A DNA stretch of 64,000 nucleotides from Microcoleus sp. bin48.metabat.b7b8b9.023 (GTDB taxonomy: Bacteria > Cyanobacteriota > Cyanobacteriia > Cyanobacteriales > Microcoleaceae). The notes under the pieces are model-generated. The model did not search any database and was not told where the DNA came from. It saw nothing but the letters and a program-made list of their open reading frames with translations. The stretch is from contig NZ_JAAFKG010000004.1 in NCBI RefSeq assembly GCF_013299185.1, forward strand, positions 124,001-188,000, read 5' to 3'. Of the stretch, positions 24,165 through 55,670 are shown piece after piece (within the stretch, counting starts at the first letter, position 1; every line of letters begins with the position of its first letter). A program made the translations under genes and the position numbers.

Positions 24165-24198
24165 CAGTTGACAGTTGACAGTTGACAGTTGACAGTTG
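24165..24198. repeat. Heptamer array (CAGTTGA)n
   Basis: Four CAGTTGA units plus a partial one, starting four bases after the stop of the upstream glycosyltransferase gene and 112 bases before the next start. The rest of the gap holds GATGCCCAATTCCC-type short repeats. Confidence 0.85.
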
Positions 24199-34468: not shown

Positions 34469-34666
34469 AAGATGGCGGTTGAAACCGCGTCTAAACAAAC
34501 GAAGATGGCGGTTGAAACCGCGTTTAAACAAACGAAGACGGCGGTTGAAACCGCGTCTAAACAAACGAAGACGGCGGTTGAAACCGCGTCTAAACAAACG
34601 AAGACGGCGGTTGAAACCGCGTCTAAACAAACGAAGACGGCGGTTGAAACCGCGTCTAAACAAACG
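34469..34666. repeat. Six perfect-period 33-bp tandem repeats with internal palindrome
   Basis: Exactly six units of 33 bp; the last four are identical and the first two differ by one to three bases. Each contains the palindrome GCGGTTGAAACCGC followed by GTCTAAACAAACG. Because 33 is a multiple of three, several frames stay open on both strands and produce artefactual ORFs. Directly after it comes AAGTCCACCTCCGTGGACTG, another hairpin. A single unit of the same composite occurs at 63119-63190. Confidence 0.95.
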
Positions 34667-34754
34667 AAGTCCACCTCCGTGGACTGAAGAAAATAATGTA
34701 ATTTTAACCGCCGGTTTTCTTCTCCCAAGGGCATTGGCTTATACCTGCGATCGC

Positions 34755-46767: not shown

Positions 46768-47103
46768 TTATGTTCCTTCAAATTCTCCCATTGCTCCCAG
46801 CCGAATAGTGATTAACTCTACATCGGTTAACGCTTCATGCGCTCCTTGTCTTGTTCCTTTTGGGGTTGTCCAAAAGCATCCCGCTTCACACACTCGATCG
46901 CCCGTTTTAAGACTACCCGAAACGACGAACACATACTCATCAGCCGGATGAGTATGAACTGGAATAATTGTACCTTGCTTCATCTTCAAGCGATGAATCG
47001 ATCCTTGTGGCACAGGCTCAGCTAATACCACCCAACTTGTCCCAGGAAACACCGATAAATCAGCGAATTGCTGTGTGGATAAGTCTTGAAAATTTTGAGT
47101 CAT
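46768..47103 (-). CDS. Cupin-domain protein
   Basis: 111 aa. Cupin motif 1 is present as IPVHTHPADEYVFVVSGSL (metal-binding HTH-E pattern), with CEAGCFWTTPKGTRQGAH as motif 2. It resembles ChrR-like cupins. The ATG at 47103 has GAGG nine bases upstream; an ATG at 47130 would add nine residues. Substrate or ligand unknown. Confidence 0.85.
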   Translation of the reverse strand: MTQNFQDLSTQQFADLSVFPGTSWVVLAEPVPQGSIHRLKMKQGTIIPVHTHPADEYVFVVSGSLKTGDRVCEAGCFWTTPKGTRQGAHEALTDVELITIRLGAMGEFEGT

Positions 47104-47139
47104 CGGTTTTATCCTCACCGTGCTGTACATCTATTATAC

Positions 47140-47198
47140 CGATCGCCCTTACAACTCCCGCAATCCATGCCCAACCACAATACTTAATAAAAACTTTA
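47140..47198. repeat. 59-bp dispersed repeat, copy B
   Basis: Second copy of the repeat at 44656-44714, in the same orientation, here upstream of the cupin gene start. Confidence 0.85.
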
Positions 47199-47296
47199 CA
47201 AAAGTTACCATGTTGGCCAACACGAGTTAGAGTTATCCTATAAAATCCAGCAATCCTGCAAAGCGTCAACCTTCCCGTCACTTATCTAGTGGTTCG

Positions 47297-48442
47297 ATGA
47301 CTCACATCCAAAGCACCAAAACCGCCACCCCTACTGCAATTTATTCCTTGACAATTGCTCCAGCCTGTGTATTGCGCGGTCAAAACGCCCTCGCACAAGC
47401 CGGAGATGCGATCGCCCGTTTCGGAAAGCGGCCCCTAATAGTCGGCGGTAGCAACTCCCTCGCCACGGCGCAACCCTACCTGCAACCAATCCTCGAACAG
47501 CAGCAATTAGAATCCGCGCAAACAGCCTACGGCAACGATTGCAGCGAAAGAAGCCTCGAAACCCTCCGCGCAGCCGTCCAAACCCACAAAGCCGACTTCA
47601 TCATCGGTGTCGGTGGCGGCAAAGCCTTGGATGCAGCCAAACTTCTCGCCCATCAGTGCCAAATTGCGATCGTCACCATCCCCACATCAGCAGCCACCTG
47701 CGCCGCTTGGACAGCACTTTCTAATATTTATTCCGAACAAGGTGCCTTTCAATACGATGTCACATTAGCCAGATGTCCCGATTTATTGATACTCGACTAC
47801 GGCTTAATTCAAACAGCACCGCAGCGGACATTAGTAGCAGGAATTGGAGATGCGATCGCCAAATGGTACGAAGCATCAGTCAGCAGCGGACACTCCGAAC
47901 AAACTCTGATAATTTCTGCCGTCCAACAAGCTAGAATCCTGCGCGATATCCTGTTCCAAAAATCAGCCGCCGCCCTCAAAGAACCAGGTAGCGAAACCTG
48001 GCAAGAAGTCACAGACGCCGCCGTATTGCTAGCAGGAGTAATCGGCGGAATTGGTGGCGCCCAATGTCGCACTGTCGCCGCCCACGCCGTCCACAACGGC
48101 CTAACTCATCTATTAGCAAGTCACGGCACATTGCACGGCGAAAAAGTTGCCTACGGCATATTAGTGCAACTGCGGCTAGAAGAAATTCTGCAAAACAATC
48201 AACTAGCAGCAACCGCCAGACAGCAACTGCTAAAATTCTACGCCGAGATTGGATTGCCCCAAACTTTAGAAGACTTAGGACTCGGAGACGTTAGCCTCAC
48301 ACAATTGCAGCGCGCCGCCGAAATAGCCTGCTATCCCAATTCCGACATCCACAGACTCCCATTTAAAGTCGTTCCCGAACAATTAATGGCAGCAATGGTT
48401 TCTACCACCGCACCTGTGGGAGAATTGAAAATCAAGAATTAA
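47297..48442 (+). CDS. Iron-containing alcohol dehydrogenase-family oxidoreductase (GldA-like)
   Basis: 381 aa. The NAD site GVGGGKALDAAKLLA and PTSAATCAAWT are family hallmarks, together with metal ligands Asp185 (GIGDAIAKWYE), a His in VAAHAVHNGLTHLL and a His in HGTLHGEKVAYG. Fold and motif order match glycerol dehydrogenase and relatives, but the substrate is not determined by sequence alone. The 3' end is duplicated downstream at 48532-48583. Confidence 0.85.
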   Translation: MTHIQSTKTATPTAIYSLTIAPACVLRGQNALAQAGDAIARFGKRPLIVGGSNSLATAQPYLQPILEQQQLESAQTAYGNDCSERSLETLRAAVQTHKADFIIGVGGGKALDAAKLLAHQCQIAIVTIPTSAATCAAWTALSNIYSEQGAFQYDVTLARCPDLLILDYGLIQTAPQRTLVAGIGDAIAKWYEASVSSGHSEQTLIISAVQQARILRDILFQKSAAALKEPGSETWQEVTDAAVLLAGVIGGIGGAQCRTVAAHAVHNGLTHLLASHGTLHGEKVAYGILVQLRLEEILQNNQLAATARQQLLKFYAEIGLPQTLEDLGLGDVSLTQLQRAAEIACYPNSDIHRLPFKVVPEQLMAAMVSTTAPVGELKIKN

Positions 48443-48650
48443 AACAGTTTGTAGTAAGGACTTTAGTCCTTAAAAGGTTGCCCGAGAAAGGACTTCAGTC
48501 CTTACTACGAACCAGGCAAAATCCGATGTTTTCTACCGCACCACTTGTGGGACAATTAAAAATTAAGAATTAAAACAGTTTTTTAAGGACTACAGTCCTT
48601 AAAAAACTGCGTCAGAAAGGACTGAAGTCCTTACTACAAACCCGAAAAAC
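48401..48650. repeat. Duplicated gene 3' end with hairpin repeats
   Basis: The last ~45 bp of the dehydrogenase gene (48401-48445) recur at 48532-48583 with a period of 131 bp, the copy keeping the AAGAATTAAAACAGTTT junction. Each unit ends in GGACTTTAGTCC/GGACTTCAGTCC hairpins with the flanks GTAGTAAGGACT and AGTCCTTACTAC, forming stems of about 15 bp. Confidence 0.8.
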
Positions 48651-48673
48651 AACTAATAACTGATACACAAAAA

Positions 48674-49858
48674 ATGACTTTGGATTGGATTAGCCCTGCT
48701 GACAGGTTGCAAAAACTACCGCCCTACGTATTTGCCCGTCTCGACGAACTCAAAGCCCGCGCCCGCGAACAAGGACTAGATTTAATAGACTTAGGAATGG
48801 GAAACCCCGACGGTGCGACTCCGCAACCGGTAGTAGAAGCCGCCATCGCAGCTATCCAAAATTCTGCAAATCACGGCTATCCGCCCTTTGAAGGAACTGC
48901 CAGTTTTCGCCGTACAATTACCAAATGGTACAGCCGCCGCTACAATGTTGAACTCGATCCAGAAGGGGAAGCATTACCTTTGTTGGGTTCCAAAGAAGGC
49001 TTAGCACATTTTGCGATCGCCTATATCAATCCCGGCGACTTAGTATTAGTACCGAGTCCCGCTTATCCCGTATTATTTCGCGGCCCAATCATCGCCGGTG
49101 CCAAAGTTCACAACATCATCCTCAAACCAGAGAATGACTGGGTAATTGACCTAGGTTCCATCCCTGACAGCGTAGCCGAACAAGCCAAAATACTCTACTT
49201 TAATTATCCCAGCAATCCGACCGGAGCAACGGCCCCCCGCGAATTTTACAAAGATATTGTTGCTTTCGCGCACAAACATCAAATTTTGTTGGTGCACGAC
49301 TTGTGTTATGCGGAATTAGCCTTTGACGGCTATCAACCGACAAGTTTATTAGAAATTCCCGGCGGCAAAGAAATTGGAGTCGAATTTCACACCATGTCAA
49401 AAACCTACAATATGGCCGGCTGGCGAGTCGGTTTTGTAGTTGGAAACAGCCGGATCATTCAAGGTTTGCGGACGTTAAAAACTAACTTAGATTACGGCAT
49501 ATTTTCTGCCTTGCAAGCAGCAGCAGAAACAGCGTTGCAATTACCAGATAGTTACTTGCACGAAGTGCAGGAACGCTACCGCACTCGCCGCGATTTTATG
49601 GTTGCAGGATTGGCAGAATTGGGGTGGAATATTCCTAAACCTCTGGCTGCAATGTATCTTTGGGTTCCTTGCACTCCGGGCATGAGTTCGACGGATTTTG
49701 CTCTGAATGTTTTGCAAAAAACTGGTGTGGTTGTCACTCCTGGTAATGCTTTCGGCCCTGGCGGTGAAGGATATGTGAGGGTTAGTTTGATTGCAGATTG
49801 CGATCGACTGGGAGAAGCTTTGCGACGTTTGAAACAAGCAAACATTCGCTATCAATAG
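48674..49858 (+). CDS. Class I/II PLP aminotransferase (AlaC-like)
   Basis: 394 aa fold-type I aminotransferase. LPPYVFARLDELKARAREQG and DLGMGNPDGATPQPV match E. coli AlaC-type alanine transaminases. The PLP lysine is Lys243 in HTMSKTYNMAGWR; YFNYPSNPTGA and HDLCYAELAFDG are the usual cofactor regions. Substrate could be alanine, aspartate or LL-diaminopimelate; dapF lies 2 kb away but is not co-transcribed. A convergent gene follows, with a 167-bp repeat array between. Confidence 0.88.
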   Translation: MTLDWISPADRLQKLPPYVFARLDELKARAREQGLDLIDLGMGNPDGATPQPVVEAAIAAIQNSANHGYPPFEGTASFRRTITKWYSRRYNVELDPEGEALPLLGSKEGLAHFAIAYINPGDLVLVPSPAYPVLFRGPIIAGAKVHNIILKPENDWVIDLGSIPDSVAEQAKILYFNYPSNPTGATAPREFYKDIVAFAHKHQILLVHDLCYAELAFDGYQPTSLLEIPGGKEIGVEFHTMSKTYNMAGWRVGFVVGNSRIIQGLRTLKTNLDYGIFSALQAAAETALQLPDSYLHEVQERYRTRRDFMVAGLAELGWNIPKPLAAMYLWVPCTPGMSSTDFALNVLQKTGVVVTPGNAFGPGGEGYVRVSLIADCDRLGEALRRLKQANIRYQ

Positions 49859-50345
49859 TCATTGGTCATTGGTCATTAGTGCATATTATATCCAGTCAAT
49901 TTCCCCTAATAAGATTGGTTCGTAGTGAGAACTTTAGTCCTCTGAATTATAAGGACTAAAGTCCTCACTACAAACCGTACACATGACTGATGATTATAAA
50001 ATTTTAATTTGTTCGCTATCAATAGTCATTGGTCATTGGTCATTAGTGCATATTATATCCAGTCAATTTCCCCTAATAAGATTGGTTCGTAGTGAGAACT
50101 TTATTCCTCTGAATTATAAGGACTAAAGTCCTCACTACAAACCGTACACATGACTGATGATTATAAAATTTTAATTTGTTCGCTATCAATAGTCATTGGT
50201 CATTGGTCATTAGTGCATATTATATCCAGTCAATTTCCCCTAATAAGATTGGTTCGTAGTGAGAACTTTATTCCTCTGAATTATAAGGACTAAAGTCCTC
50301 ACTACAAACCGTACACATGACTGATGATTATAACTTTTTAATTTG
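49845..50345. repeat. Three tandem 167-bp units spanning a convergent gene gap
   Basis: Units start at 49845, 50012 and 50179, with an exact period of 167 bp; unit one starts within the aminotransferase's last codons (TTCGCTATCAATAG). Each unit contains TCATTGGTCATTGGTCATTA heptamers, a hairpin (GTAGTGAGAACTTTA... TAAAGTCCTCACTAC), and ends with the reverse of the next gene's last codons (TTTTAATTTG). Units two and three share CTTTATTCC where unit one has CTTTAGTCC. The junctions carry TTCG. Confidence 0.95.
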
Positions 50346-51479
50346 TTCGATCGCCCAGTTGAACGTTTCCATAACTTGCTGGAGGGCAAATTCGTCTTCC
50401 AAAGTAGATAAAGCCAGACTCGGCGACCTTCTCTCGCCCGGTTCTGTAGGTAGCGAAAGACCGATCGAACTTAGCTTATTTCTCAATTCCAGCCAATTTT
50501 GTTCAGCATTAAATGGCGGTTGGGAACCGTAATCGTCAGCAGAAATCTCCATTCTGCCAGCAATATCTACAGTGAATAACTGATATGGTTTTCTGCCCCT
50601 GTGATGCAACCCGGCCGCGAAACCCCCGTAGGTGTCCCCCGTTCCCCAATGGATTTGAATTTCGGGTTCTTGACTTTTCGCCCAAAGGTATATCGATCTT
50701 GCCATTTGCGCCTCGTCCGCGCCTTGTCTGGCTTTGATTTCCGCAAAAAATGACGATTCATCCCAGCGCCTTCTTTCGCGCATTGCGTTGGATTTTTTAT
50801 GCTGTGCTTCGGCTGTCTGACCGATAACTCTGGGAACCAAGGTTCTCAAACCATCTTCACTTACATATTGCTTAATTTCCAGGGCCAAAACTTCAAGCGG
50901 ATCCATTTGTTCGTTGAGAAATTCCACAACTCGGCGCATTTCAGCGGAAATCTCGTCTGCTACAAATACTAAGCGAATTTTACCGGCTTGCAAATTAGTT
51001 TTAACTTTCTGCCAAAATAGGTCTTCATTAGCATCCGCACCGAGAAACTCTTCAAAAATCTGTTCGGGATCGCGACCCCGATCGCGACAATTGGCTTCAA
51101 ACAGAGCAATAATTGAATCTATTGGCCAGTAAACCAACGCATTAGCAGCATAGTCGATCGACTGACCCAAAACTTTTTGCCGGAGTGCAGCATTAGGAGT
51201 GCGCCTGACATCCACCAAAGTAGGAACTGCATTTTGGTCGAGAAACAAGTGATCCAGCGACCACTGGACGGCACTTTCCTCATCGGTGGACACTGCTGCT
51301 TCCCGTGAAATTAACAGCCACTTCCGCGCCGTCGCCCGATCGATTTGATCTCCGGCAATCAGATTAGGATAAGTTACAAGCAAGTCTTGTAACTGGTCTT
51401 CCGAGTCGTAGGGCTGTTCCATCATTTCTACCAGCCTGTCGTCGTCCTGAATCAGATAAATACCTCCAGCCATGCACAT
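50328..51479 (-). CDS. PD-(D/E)XK nuclease-like protein of unknown role
   Basis: 383 aa. LQDLLVTYPNLIAGDQI, then PTLVDVRRTPNAALRQKVLGQ and SIDYAANALVYWP, follow the layout of a PD-(D/E)XK domain in which an EVK-type motif sits in the second strand. Here that motif reads DVRR, so Glu and Lys are replaced by Asp and Arg. A C-terminal extension includes VLALEIKQYVSEDG and IHWGTGDTYGGFAAGLHHRG. It may be a degenerate or divergent nuclease. No methyltransferase or defence gene adjoins it. Its 3' end is part of the 167-bp array. Confidence 0.65.
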   Translation of the reverse strand: MCMAGGIYLIQDDDRLVEMMEQPYDSEDQLQDLLVTYPNLIAGDQIDRATARKWLLISREAAVSTDEESAVQWSLDHLFLDQNAVPTLVDVRRTPNAALRQKVLGQSIDYAANALVYWPIDSIIALFEANCRDRGRDPEQIFEEFLGADANEDLFWQKVKTNLQAGKIRLVFVADEISAEMRRVVEFLNEQMDPLEVLALEIKQYVSEDGLRTLVPRVIGQTAEAQHKKSNAMRERRRWDESSFFAEIKARQGADEAQMARSIYLWAKSQEPEIQIHWGTGDTYGGFAAGLHHRGRKPYQLFTVDIAGRMEISADDYGSQPPFNAEQNWLELRNKLSSIGLSLPTEPGERRSPSLALSTLEDEFALQQVMETFNWAIEQIKKL

Positions 51480-51786
51480 CCACCTACTTAGTTTTAGATT
51501 TTAGATTTTAGATTTTAGAATTCAGGCTGATTTATTAGTTATTAGTCATTAGTCATTAGTTATTAGTTATTAGTTATTAGTCAATGAATTCAGAAGGTGC
51601 AAGGGATTATTCATTCATCATTCTTCATAATTAAAGAATTAAAGAAAAATTTGGAATTCAAGAATTTTCCTTGTTTGTCAATTCCACAAAAAACTCCTTC
51701 TGACTGATGACTAATCATAACTGACTAATGACTAATGACTAATCACAACAGTCAACTGTCAACTGACAACTGTCAACTGACAACTG
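51480..51786. other. Intergenic simple-repeat region
   Basis: 307 bp made mostly of TAGATTT iterations (51495-51515), TTATTAGTCATTAG iterations (51535-51580), GACTAATGACTAATGAC iterations (51720-51742) and CAACTGTCAACTGACAACTG arrays (51750-51812), the last running into the dapF coding end. No gene is seen. Confidence 0.7.
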
Positions 51787-52644
51787 TCAACTGACAACTG
51801 ACAACTGACTAAGACAACCAGTAAATACTTGCTGTGCTGGCCCAGTCATGTAAATCCGCCCAGAAACTTCTGCCCATTCGATTTCCAAAACGCCACCTGG
51901 GAGTTCAACAGCAGTTGTTCGATCGCACTTTCCGACCAACACCCCAGCCACCACAGCAGCACAAGCACCAGTCCCACAAGCTAGAGTAACACCTGCGCCC
52001 CTTTCCCACACACGCATTTTTATGTAGTCCCGTCGTATAACTTGAATAAATTCAGTATTTGTACGCTGCGGGAAGGCTGGATGGTGCTCGAATTGAGGCC
52101 CCACAGTTTCCAAAGCCACAGCCGAAACATCGTCTACAAAGGTAATGCAGTGAGGATTTCCCATGCTGACGCAGGTAACAGACCAAGATTTATCGGCAAC
52201 TTCGATCGGCACATCTATCACTTTGGCATCTGTTGCAGCCAAAGTTGTCGGAATTTCCGCAGCCATTAGCCGGGGAAGTCCCATATCCACCTTAACCTGA
52301 CCGTCCGATCGCAATTCGGGGCTAATCACACCCGCCAGAGTGTGAATGCGATACTCAGTTTTTGCTTTCTCACCTTCCAAATCGGCGATAAACTTAGCCA
52401 AACAGCGAATCCCGTTGCCGCACATTTCCGGTTCCGAACCGTCGGAGTTAAAAATCCGCATCGTATAGTCAGTGCCGTTTTGACCCGGAAGAGCAAAAAT
52501 CACGCCGTCTGCGCCGATCCCAAAATGTCGATCGCACATGGACACAGCTTGTTCAGGTGTTAAAACTGGTTCTGAGGAGTGGCGGTTGTCAATCAGAATA
52601 AAATCATTGCCCAGTCCGTGATACTTCGCAAATTCGATCGGCAT
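51787..52644 (-). CDS. dapF: Diaminopimelate epimerase
   Basis: 285 aa. It converts LL- to meso-diaminopimelate for lysine and peptidoglycan. The catalytic cysteines are in [11 protein letters not shown] and LACGTGACA; start [15 protein letters not shown] is the usual N terminus, so ATG 52644 is chosen and an upstream 51-codon extension is rejected because it is encoded by repeats. The last residues (SQLSVVS) come from the heptamer array, which has intruded into the 3' end. A further array lies about 15 bp upstream of the start. Confidence 0.95.
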
Positions 52645-52658
52645 AAAAACAAACCTCT

Positions 52659-52691
52659 GTTGACAGTTGACAGTTGACAGTTGACAGTTAA
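52659..52691. repeat. Heptamer array upstream of dapF
   Basis: About four TTGACAG units 15-45 bp upstream of the dapF start on the minus strand, in its expected leader. It is followed by GCAGTTGAC-containing palindromic segments to about 52790. Confidence 0.8.
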
Positions 52692-52899
52692 TAGTTGACC
52701 CAACGACTGCGTTTATCCGCGCTGCCAAAGGGCGATCGGGTAAAGCAGTTGACCCTGCGGCTGCGCGAACCCGCAAGCAGTTGACAGTCGATCGCAAAAA
52801 AATGACTAATGCTGTTCGCGAGCGGGGACGCTCGCACTAATGACCGATGACTAATGACTAATGATTAATGACCAATGACCAATTTACCCATTTCCCACT

Positions 52900-53112
52900 A
52901 TGTCAGAATTTGAGACCGGATTGCCCAGCGTTCGCTTAATACAAAGCTACATCAAAGACAAAGAAAAGTTAGAGATCAAACTCATGACAGGCGACTTGCT
53001 AGCCGGCAGAATTTTTTGGCAGGATCATAGCTGTATTTGCCTCCTCGATGCCTCAGAAACACAAATTCTGATCTCGCGATCGGCCATTGCTTATCTCAAA
53101 CCCAACGCCTGA
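52900..53112 (+). CDS. hfq: Cyanobacterial-type Hfq RNA-binding protein
   Basis: 70 aa. GLPSVRLIQSYIKDKEKLEI and LMTGDLLAGRIFWQDHSCIC match cyanobacterial Hfq proteins, which keep the Sm fold but lack some canonical RNA-binding residues; in Synechocystis Hfq acts with type IV pili and motility (family knowledge). ISRSAIAYLKP is the Sm2-like end. No ribosome site is clear. It is divergent from dapF across a 255-bp repeat-rich spacer. Confidence 0.88.
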   Translation: MSEFETGLPSVRLIQSYIKDKEKLEIKLMTGDLLAGRIFWQDHSCICLLDASETQILISRSAIAYLKPNA

Positions 53113-53301
53113 GGAAACGGGGAGAGGGAAAGAGGGGGAAAATCTTTCCTGTTCCCTCTTCCTTCCATCCGTTACATCCCCTACAGGCTCCCGTCTTCCG
53201 TCTTCCCTCTTCCCTCTGACGAATAACGTTCGATCGCGAGGACAGCACCGATGCCCAATGCCCAATGCCCCATCCCTCCGCTTCGCTTTGGCGAATGCCC
53301 A

Positions 53302-53358
53302 ATGACAACTGACAACTGTCAACTGTCAACTGTCAACTGTCAACTGACAACTGACTAA
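53302..53358. repeat. Heptamer array (CAACTGT/CAACTGA)n before the antiporter stop
   Basis: About seven units ending at the stop codon region of the minus-strand antiporter gene. Preceded by GATGCCCAATGCCCAATG-type short repeats at 53250-53300. Confidence 0.85.
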
Positions 53359-55670
53359 TCGCTAAATAGCTTTTCGCTAACTTGGGCGGTGACAAAAGGC
53401 AGCTTTAAGGCAGGTTGCGGCACCGGAGGCGAGGCCGTCCGCTGCATCAAGCCGAGTTCGTAGAAGCCTCCGCACAGCAGCAAACGATCGCCCTCTTGCA
53501 AATCAGTAGTTCCATCCGGCCAGCGAGTAAACTTCCCTTCCCGGCGGATCGCCCGCACCTGCACCCCATACTGGGTGAGCAAATCTACCTCTGACAGTTT
53601 TTGGCCAACCCAAGGACTGTTGGCTGGTAACCTCAACCACTGACAAGAACTGTCGCCCTCGGGGACAGCAACTTCGCCCTTCGCCAGCAACTCAAAACTG
53701 ATCAGTTCTTCCGGTTCACCCACTACCAAAAGTCGATCGCCCGACAGCAAAGCAGCCTTCCCGTTAGGATAATCAATTTCCTCACCATCTTCGCGGACGA
53801 TCGCCATCACGCTGACCCCTGTCAACTGCCGCAAGTTAGTTTCTTCCAGAGTCATCCCACCGATGGGAGAGCCCTCCGGTAAGTTGTACCAATCGCCGTT
53901 GAGATCTCGAACCGCCACTTTCAAATCCCGCGAAACCGCCAAAGGTTCCCGCGCCGGCCGCAATTCCAGATAGCGGCTGCTGCGAATTTGCTGCACATCC
54001 CGCCCAATAGCCATTGCAGACAAACCCATCCCAGCCAGCAAGTGGGCAGACAGTTCTAAACTAGCCTCAAACTCCGGCTGCACAACTTCCCAAGCCCCGA
54101 GTTGGTAAAGCAGTTCAATATCTTTATCTTTGTTGGCGCGCACCACAATATCCAAATCCGGGACTAATTCTAAAGCCCGCTTCAGACACAAACGAGTGCT
54201 CATCGGATCGGGAAGAGTAATCGCCATTGCTTTGGCGCGTTCTACCCCGGCGGCTTCCAATACGTGCAAGCTAGCAGCATTCCCGTAAATGTAAGGAATT
54301 CCTGACACTCTGCATTCTTGAATTCTGCTTTCCGACTCGTCGATTACCACAATTGAACAGTTGCGGCTTTGCAGCACTTTGACTAAATTTCTGCCAACTC
54401 GCCCGTAGCCACAAACCACAACATGATTTTGTTCCGGCAAAGTTTCAGCTATTTCGACAGGTTGAGATGTTTGGTCAAAATAGCGCTGCAAAGGCCCGAA
54501 ATTTTCCGCCCACTTGAATAACTGTGGCACGCTTCTCAATACAAACGGCGTCAGCACCAAGGTGACTGCTGTCGTTCCTAAAATTAATAGGTAAACGTTT
54601 CGCGAAACCAGTCCCATAGCTTGGCCGGAACTAGCGAGTACAAAGGAAAATTCTCCGATTTGAGCTAAGCCCAAACCTGCGATTAATGCTGTTTTTAGGG
54701 GATAGCCAAATAATCGGACGATCGGCGTTACAATCAAGAATTTGCCGACAAATACTAGAAATACCAGTCCCAAAATTAACTCTAGATGGTTCCAGAGAAA
54801 CACTGGGTCGATTAACATTCCGATGGTAACAAAAAATAAGGATGCAAAAATATCTCGCAAAGGCTCGACATAAGTTAGAGTTTGGTCGGCATATTCCACC
54901 TCCGAAATCATTAAACCAGCCACAAATGCGCCCATCTCGATCGAGAAACCCAGATATTCTGTCAGCAGCGCAATCCCTAAAGCCAAAACCACAACTCCCA
55001 GCAAAAACAGTTCCCGGCTTTCTGTTCTCGCGAGGTAGCGCAGCAACTGCGGGACGATCCAAATGCCCGCTACTACTGCACCCGCAGCAAATAATCCGAT
55101 CCGCACCAGGGCCCAGACTATTGTCATGCCGATCGCCTCTGCGGGCTGGTTGAGGGCCGGCAAAACAGCCAGCATTAGCCCCAAGGCCAAATCTTGAACT
55201 ACCAAGATTCCCAGCATGACTTGCCCGTGGGAAGTACCGCCTTCATTGCGTTCCATCAAGCATTTGAGTACAACCGCCGTCGAGGAAAGCGACAGGATCG
55301 CCCCTAAAAACACCCCTTGGGCAGGGGAATCTACCCAGCCTACACCCAAAGAAATTGCAGTAGTAATGGCGATCGTCAGCACAATTTGCAAGCCCCCCCC
55401 GCCCAGACTAATTGCTTTAACTCGATTGAGTTCGGCGAATGAAAACTCTACTCCCAAAGCAAACAACAGAAAAGCAACACCAAATTCTGCCAGGGTGTCT
55501 ACCTGAATTAATTCTTTAATCAGCCCCAAACCGGCCGGCCCAACTACGATCCCTCCCAGGAGGTATCCGAGAATTACCGGCTGTCGCAACAACGATGCAA
55601 AGAGTCCTCCTGCTGCGGCAGCAGCGAGAACTAGAACTAAGTCAACAATCAGTCGGAAGTCTTCTTGCAC
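53355..55670 (-). CDS. Kef-type cation/proton antiporter with TrkA domains
   Basis: 771 aa. About twelve membrane helices of the CPA2 exchanger (PVILGYLLGGIVVGPAGLGL, FGVAFLLFALGVEFSFAELN, GAFVAGLMISEVEYADQTL) occupy residues 1-390. A TrkA-N/RCK domain follows (HVVVCGYGRVGRNLVKVLQS) and then two TrkA-C domains, the second ending LLLCGGFYELG. The RCK domains would gate ion flow by nucleotide or ligand binding. I choose GTG 55670, the usual N terminus of relatives; the frame is open to 55805, but that part overlaps the divergent acyltransferase gene. Confidence 0.88.
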   Translation of the reverse strand: MQEDFRLIVDLVLVLAAAAAGGLFASLLRQPVILGYLLGGIVVGPAGLGLIKELIQVDTLAEFGVAFLLFALGVEFSFAELNRVKAISLGGGGLQIVLTIAITTAISLGVGWVDSPAQGVFLGAILSLSSTAVVLKCLMERNEGGTSHGQVMLGILVVQDLALGLMLAVLPALNQPAEAIGMTIVWALVRIGLFAAGAVVAGIWIVPQLLRYLARTESRELFLLGVVVLALGIALLTEYLGFSIEMGAFVAGLMISEVEYADQTLTYVEPLRDIFASLFFVTIGMLIDPVFLWNHLELILGLVFLVFVGKFLIVTPIVRLFGYPLKTALIAGLGLAQIGEFSFVLASSGQAMGLVSRNVYLLILGTTAVTLVLTPFVLRSVPQLFKWAENFGPLQRYFDQTSQPVEIAETLPEQNHVVVCGYGRVGRNLVKVLQSRNCSIVVIDESESRIQECRVSGIPYIYGNAASLHVLEAAGVERAKAMAITLPDPMSTRLCLKRALELVPDLDIVVRANKDKDIELLYQLGAWEVVQPEFEASLELSAHLLAGMGLSAMAIGRDVQQIRSSRYLELRPAREPLAVSRDLKVAVRDLNGDWYNLPEGSPIGGMTLEETNLRQLTGVSVMAIVREDGEEIDYPNGKAALLSGDRLLVVGEPEELISFELLAKGEVAVPEGDSSCQWLRLPANSPWVGQKLSEVDLLTQYGVQVRAIRREGKFTRWPDGTTDLQEGDRLLLCGGFYELGLMQRTASPPVPQPALKLPFVTAQVSEKLFSD

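Follow-up and report, generated by a model that had tools for sequence, protein, structure and literature searches.

The 64,000-nucleotide stretch of Microcoleus sp. bin48.metabat.b7b8b9.023 DNA analysed here (the window; contig NZ_JAAFKG010000004.1, positions 124,001 to 188,000 of the forward strand) contains a tandem array of three 167-bp units that spans the whole gap between two convergent genes. The units lie on the plus strand at 49845-50011, 50012-50178 and 50179-50345, and are followed by a terminal TTCG (50346-50349, plus strand), a 4-bp overlap that also opens the units at 49845, 50012 and 50179, so that the array measures 3 x 167 + 4 bp. The plus strand gene on the left (48674-49858) encodes an aminotransferase of the aspartate/LL-diaminopimelate type (NF004611, 792 bits with a cut-off of 628; PF00155), and its last 14 bases are part of unit 1. 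The minus strand gene on the right (50328-51479) encodes a conserved protein without Pfam or NCBIfam family, which is found in 28 of the 29 genomes of the genus, and its last 18 bases are part of unit 3. The left junction reads AACA-TTCG-CTATC, both inner junctions AATTTG-TTCG-CTATC, and the right junction AATTTG-TTCG-ATCG. Both genes are spared, because each end of the array retains one original gene end. A tblastn search in the relative that is closest by the two flanking proteins covers 393/394 and 383/383 of their residues, with 99% and 98% identity, respectively. The preliminary description of this DNA had reported a 167-bp triplication across the convergent gap, the presence of the 3' codons of both flanking genes within the unit, and the intactness of both proteins, and on all three points we agree with it. 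Tandem Repeats Finder delimits the array to 49845-50349 (period 167, 3.0 copies, match 99%, indels 0), and a repeat search places the copy starts at 49845, 50012 and 50179, with a spacing of 167 bp in both cases.

The units are almost identical. Units 1 and 2 differ at a single site (unit position 93, G/T, identity 99.4%), units 2 and 3 at two sites (positions 156-157, AA/CT, identity 98.8%), and units 1 and 3 at all three variable sites (identity 98.2%). Unit 1 thus has G at 49937 and AA at 50000-50001, unit 3 has T at 50271 and CT at 50334-50335, and unit 2 appears as a hybrid, with the unit 3 state at position 93 and the unit 1 state at positions 156-157. In view of unit length and identity, a chance origin of the triplication is excluded, and the three-unit tandem array is real. 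One reservation is that the assembly is a draft in 125 contigs, from which the three units are taken. In draft assemblies, the collapse of repeats is a commoner error than their multiplication. False multiplication of one unit would also have to be reconciled with the three sites at which the units differ and with the joining of each end unit to its own gene, and we regard such an artefact as extremely unlikely.

Each unit is built round a dimer of GTAG-tagged repetitive extragenic palindromes (REPs), also termed a REPIN. The dimer of unit 1 is a 60-bp palindrome at 49917-49976, with arms of 25 bp and a loop of 10 bases. Its counterparts are the palindromes at 50084-50143 in unit 2 and 50251-50310 in unit 3. 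A REP arm has the layout GTAG-TGA-GGACT-TT-AGTCC, and the two halves face inwards, with GTAG outermost on both sides (in unit 1 at 49922-49925 on the plus strand and 49968-49971 on the minus strand). The left REP core in the window is decayed, with GAACT in place of GGACT. As a whole, the dimer folds well as DNA (-17.3 kcal/mol, z -8.1), and the hairpin is also strong as RNA (z -6.4). Single REPs fold weakly, at -1.9 kcal/mol for the right one (shuffles mean -0.6) and -0.2 kcal/mol for the decayed left one, with a stem of 5 bp. An Rfam search over the array gave no match up to an E-value of 0.5; elsewhere in 47000-53500 there were four matches below the gathering score.

The palindrome is not particular to this gap. 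When the unit is used as a query against the genome, 207 matches are found, and all matches listed outside the array include the palindrome. The REP core GTAGTNAGGACTNNAGTCC occurs at 1,768 places in the genome (874 forward and 894 reverse), and its reversed control at none. Most cores are extragenic, since 178 of 209 sampled cores lie outside open reading frames (ORFs) of at least 100 aa. Family-wide, core neighbours within 40 bp are arranged head-to-head in 54, tail-to-tail in 36 and head-to-tail in 51 cases, the neighbours within arrays being included. The preliminary description overlooked this dispersal, and with it the link of the repeat to a REP-associated tyrosine transposase (RAYT).

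The RAYT of the window's genome has 199 aa and is encoded at C38:230864-231460 (L148:1402-2001), with a score of 97.5 bits for NF047646 (cut-off 80). An array of 21 cores precedes the gene and stops some 20 bp short of the start codon. Six of the 29 genus genomes have a homologue with at least 89% identity, and cores are found within about 150 bp of the RAYT gene in all six (among them L166-L170), on both sides in four of them. In the window's genome, cores within 1.5 kb are confined to one side. None of three homologues with 65-71% identity has cores in the 3.6 kb examined. The six RAYT-bearing genomes have 400-1879 cores each and the other 23 have 2-503 (Mann-Whitney p 1.7e-4, uncorrected for kinship). 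Paired contrasts of genomes with and without RAYT go in the same direction, with 499 versus 125 cores for G020/G023 and 400 versus 57 for G024/G025. The REP family is therefore linked to a cognate RAYT, and reaches high numbers in the genus where the linked RAYT is present. The split is imperfect, as the relative that is closest by the two flanking proteins (G006) lacks a close RAYT homologue and still counts 503 cores, which exceeds the number in two of the six RAYT-bearing genomes. Binding and cleavage of the element by the RAYT are putative.

These features can be compared with REP systems described in other bacteria. GTAG-tagged REPs, as characterized in PMC3733652, have GTAG on the outside in head-to-head dimers, prefer unidirectional and convergent gaps, and include the cyanobacterial families GTAG-12, 15 and 16. 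The window dimer agrees with them in its head-to-head arrangement and outermost GTAG. For its core, GTAG-TGA-GGACT-TT-AGTCC, the comparison concerns the layout; the stem has only 5 bp, and its fold in isolation is weak. RAYT genes are described as always flanked by two inverted REPs, and REPs are abundant where a particular rayt is present (PMC2817692). Like the RAYT/REP/BIME (bacterial interspersed mosaic element) systems of that account, the RAYT of the genus has its own REPs alongside, and its presence tracks core number. Unlike the rule given there, cores on both sides are seen in only 4/6 cases. Tandem arrangement also has a precedent. Pseudomonas fluorescens SBW25 is reported to contain ordered tandem clusters of REPINs with flanking DNA, some of them adjoining RAYT genes (PMC3116915). 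As in the SBW25 clusters, near-identical units of REPIN and flank follow each other head to tail in the window. Differences are that the window unit includes the 3' codons of both convergent genes, that there is no unrepeated spacer, and that the host is a cyanobacterium. The comparison with PMC3116915 concerns the layout. The window array is thus a cyanobacterial case of tandem REPIN clusters with flanks, a kind known from Pseudomonas. A literature search found no paper on this REP family in Microcoleus. The array offers a neat case, with clear boundaries, of tandem amplification of a REPIN in cyanobacteria, from a genus of which 29 genomes show element number to vary with the presence of one RAYT gene.

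Tandem arrays are common in the genome of the window. They were collected from an 839-kb sample, made up of the window and 39 of 40 further stretches of the genome (a 20-kb stretch, L137, known to hold an array, was excluded). The sampled contigs were picked non-randomly from those with element matches, and cores are about as dense in the sample (209 per 0.839 Mb) as in the whole genome (1768 per 7.52 Mb). The sample contains 84 tandem arrays with a period of at least 40 bp, of which 52 are mostly noncoding. REP cores are present in 22 of the 84, and 156 of the 209 cores (75%) lie in arrays or at most 30 bp from them. Strong palindromes occur in 19 of the 52 noncoding arrays, compared with 1.06 on average and at most 5 in 2000 permutations (the permutation used 84 palindrome loci, the collapsed count being 81). 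The array in the window is therefore one of many, and ordinary for this genome. Its unit is the longest among the 22 core-bearing arrays, 14 of which have periods of 63-75 bp.

A rival explanation is that the transposase itself built the array. According to this explanation, the RAYT would process circular REP intermediates, which would be reinserted as tandem units. A RAYT gene is present, the array of 21 cores ends just upstream of it, and a circular-intermediate model from earlier work is related in PMC3733652. However, the junctions in the window lie inside coding sequence, at a distance from the outermost GTAG of 77 bp on the left and 40 bp on the right, whereas 16 of the 21 REP arrays with a period of at least 60 bp have a start or end no more than 15 bp from a core. 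An array made by the RAYT is thus improbable at this locus. We consider it very likely instead that the array combines two things, an element of the GTAG-tagged REP dimer kind and a tandem duplication independent of the RAYT.

Such a history would have begun with a GTAG-tagged REP dimer between the two convergent genes. A stretch made up of this element, its flanks and the 3' codons of both genes would then have been duplicated in tandem without the RAYT, by replication slippage or short-homology recombination, and the first junction would either have used TTCG or have fallen on it. A two-copy array, with G and AA in the left copy and T and CT in the right copy, would next have gained the third unit by slippage or unequal crossing-over within the repeat. 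With the point of exchange anywhere from unit position 94 to 155, this gain would leave a hybrid middle unit and produce precisely the observed states at the three variable sites.

The preliminary description had ascribed the boundaries of the array to TTCG microhomology. The 4-bp TTCG overlap is indeed present at every junction, but an origin by microhomology is weaker than was stated. At random breakpoints and with equal base frequencies, junction homology of at least 4 bp has a chance of about 1.6%, and this figure applies to a single junction that was singled out post hoc. Other arrays help little. Junctions were compared in the 33 of 84 arrays with a match of at least 96% and no indels, 26 of them noncoding. 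Among these 26, only 16 end within 5 bp of a whole copy number, nine of them with an excess of 0 to 5 bp (4 bp in the window). Because of these numbers, the genome-wide evidence for a start by short homology is weak, which counts against this part of the proposed path. TTCG may have served in the first duplication.

The order of later events is best approached from the three variable sites. Position 93 is G in all four aligned copies from relatives, and the T shared by units 2 and 3 is therefore derived. The preliminary description had noted a change shared by these two units, and had concluded from it that the last duplication is the youngest. This conclusion is not supported, as it omits the two sites (positions 156-157) at which units 1 and 2 agree against unit 3. 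The array therefore does not reveal any simple order of copying. In relatives, positions 156-157 are CG in G006, in copy 2 of G007, and in L011 and L012, and AC, AG, TG or others elsewhere. Unit 2 is probably a hybrid, which has taken its 5' part from the right copy and its 3' part from the left copy. A serial duplication without exchange, as a variant of the last step, would involve copying of unit 1, mutation of position 93, duplication of the mutated copy, and the gain of CT by unit 3. This path explains the derived T in units 2 and 3. It requires a change of CG to AA before the array arose and of AA to CT later in unit 3, so that the hybrid path is shorter by one mutation, and units 1 and 2 are the closer pair (one difference for 1 and 2, two for 2 and 3). 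Serial duplication is in our opinion possible, although the less likely course.

Several observations caution against too much trust in the hybrid. It depends on three sites, two of which (156-157) are in a variable codon, and it saves about one mutation compared to serial duplication in a manual count. Seven other three-copy arrays give a mixed picture. Three of them (L121, L122 and L136) show the polarity of an exchange, with the differences of the first unit on the left and those of the last unit on the right, but with one side at the edge of the unit and with uncertain array limits. L124:8661 has one site in the wrong order, and L108:18600 has a middle unit that is divergent at five sites. 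Two of the seven have one variable site only.

Copy number at the same gap varies between species. We compared the gaps of 20 species, window included, among the 29 genus genomes; the other nine were left out due to contig ends or long inserts (the G027 gap was read for its ORFs only). REP halves are present in five of the 20 gaps. The window has three units, and G007 has two diverged units with a different junction, as judged by eye. G024 and G025 have one REP element each, and G011 has two, one of them broken (also by eye). The element is absent from the other 15 gaps, including that of G006, which holds another hairpin. Three copies fixed in divergent species would have refuted the preliminary description; within this set, three units are found in the window only. 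Copy number thus evolves quickly, and three units are not fixed. As the number of units in this gap is not the same in related species, strains might allow array growth to be traced step by step (a putative short-homology duplication, followed by exchange within the array). The gap upstream of the aminotransferase gene also varies, with two hairpins in the window, one each in G006 and G026, and at least two in G024.

The DNA flanking the gap in G006 (C86; L142, L009) is about 96-97% identical to that in the window, and the gap DNA is wholly different. By eye, the G006 gap DNA is like that of the more distant G026 (L014). The comparison of G006 with the window indicates that turnover or recombination is faster in the gap than in the genes.

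When the hairpin loops at the array gap are compared between species (49936-49957 in the window and L139:19321-19489), their orientation is reversed while that of the flanks is not. The loop in unit 1 of the window scores 0.91 against the reverse complement of that in copy 2 of G007 and 0.45 directly, and the loop in copy 1 of G007 scores 0.72 in inverted and 0.37 in direct orientation with those in G024 and G025. Template switching in hairpins is described as able to invert loops (PMC8794818). Loop inversion is not a general habit, as the related hairpins in the gap upstream have the direct orientation in all comparisons of the window, G006, G024 and G026. The loop is not a locus-specific marker either, as there is a copy with one mismatch elsewhere in the window's genome (C83:34047), and one each in G006, G011 and G020. 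Because of this copy, conversion of the loop from another copy is an alternative to inversion in place.

Selection might also maintain the triplication, whether as a bidirectional terminator or stabilizer of RNA for the two convergent genes, or for the promoter-like sites at its inner junctions. The hairpin is strong as RNA, as noted above, and by eye several other species carry different hairpins in the same gap. Convergent gaps are favoured by REP cores (18/92 versus 19/380 other gaps, Fisher p 2.7e-5) and by arrays (21/92 versus 24/380, Fisher p 1.1e-5). By class, arrays are found in 21/92 convergent, 21/282 co-directional and 3/98 divergent gaps, with classes assigned from ORFs of at least 100 aa rather than from annotation. 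Moreover, both inner junctions create a minus strand site TTGATA-18-TATAAT (49993-50022 at the junction of units 1 and 2, 50160-50189 at that of units 2 and 3), with the first hexamer from the end of the aminotransferase gene and the second from the end of the other gene. The sites are promoter-like by virtue of a consensus match only (11 of 12 positions). Equally good sites number 34 in the 839 kb (both strands), 20 of them noncoding, which amounts to 0.05 per 505 noncoding bases. A promoter at this place would read leftwards, antisense to the aminotransferase gene; the site was found post hoc, and cyanobacterial promoters may differ from the consensus.

Other observations speak against selection. 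A plain intrinsic (bidirectional) terminator was considered and rejected, as the combination of stem and T-run is absent, and a consensus scan of 49700-50500 gave no terminator-like site (mean of shuffles 0.4). The 15 gaps of 20 that lack the element include that of the closest relative by flanking proteins. Avoidance of promoter-bearing gaps accounts equally well for the convergent bias. No effect of the array on either flanking gene was demonstrated in this sequence-level analysis. Maintenance by selection is thus very improbable, and we infer that the array is neutral, with slippage or unequal exchange as the engine of its growth.

The REP population of the genus might even grow largely in place. 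Tandem duplication provoked by hairpins (75% of the sampled cores are in or beside arrays), together with unequal exchange and with inversion of loops or ectopic conversion by way of the palindrome, would then outweigh transposition by the RAYT, and could carry gene 3' ends along. This generalization is speculative, and we regard it as rather doubtful. Were it true, a REP would be a local duplication hotspot, able to make new junction sequences such as the promoter-like sites.

Some further features of the locus and its surroundings deserve mention. For the minus strand gene at 50328-51479, the candidate phage-defence model PDC-S11 gives a weak hit of 46 bits, yet the gene is present in nearly all genomes of the genus. 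The gap itself ranges in size from 67 bp to about 5.6 kb across the genus. In G027, it holds about 5 kb (L147:10412-14975), possibly a defence cassette. Among the proteins encoded there are a dynamin-like GTPase that weakly matches LeoA, one that resembles glycine-zipper proteins but scores below the Pfam cut-off, and one that weakly matches JukB. G003 and G004 have about 5 kb in the same gap, as judged from match positions, and L018 (Microcoleus vaginatus HSN003) has an insert of about 1.7 kb, which by eye contains a transposase-like gene between inverted ends.

Other repeats are present in the window. The next gap upstream contains a two-copy array at 48395-48642 (period 129, 81%) with related hairpins, and six 33-bp tandem copies (98%) of another palindromic unit are found at 34469-34669. 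The first 35 bases of the 167-bp unit, a minor part of it, contain heptamers of the TCATTGG/TCATTAG type. Short tandem runs of heptamers also occur at 24165, 33833, 34048, 36425, 40977, 51532 and 53303, and presumably resemble the short tandem heptamer repeats (STRR) of filamentous cyanobacteria.
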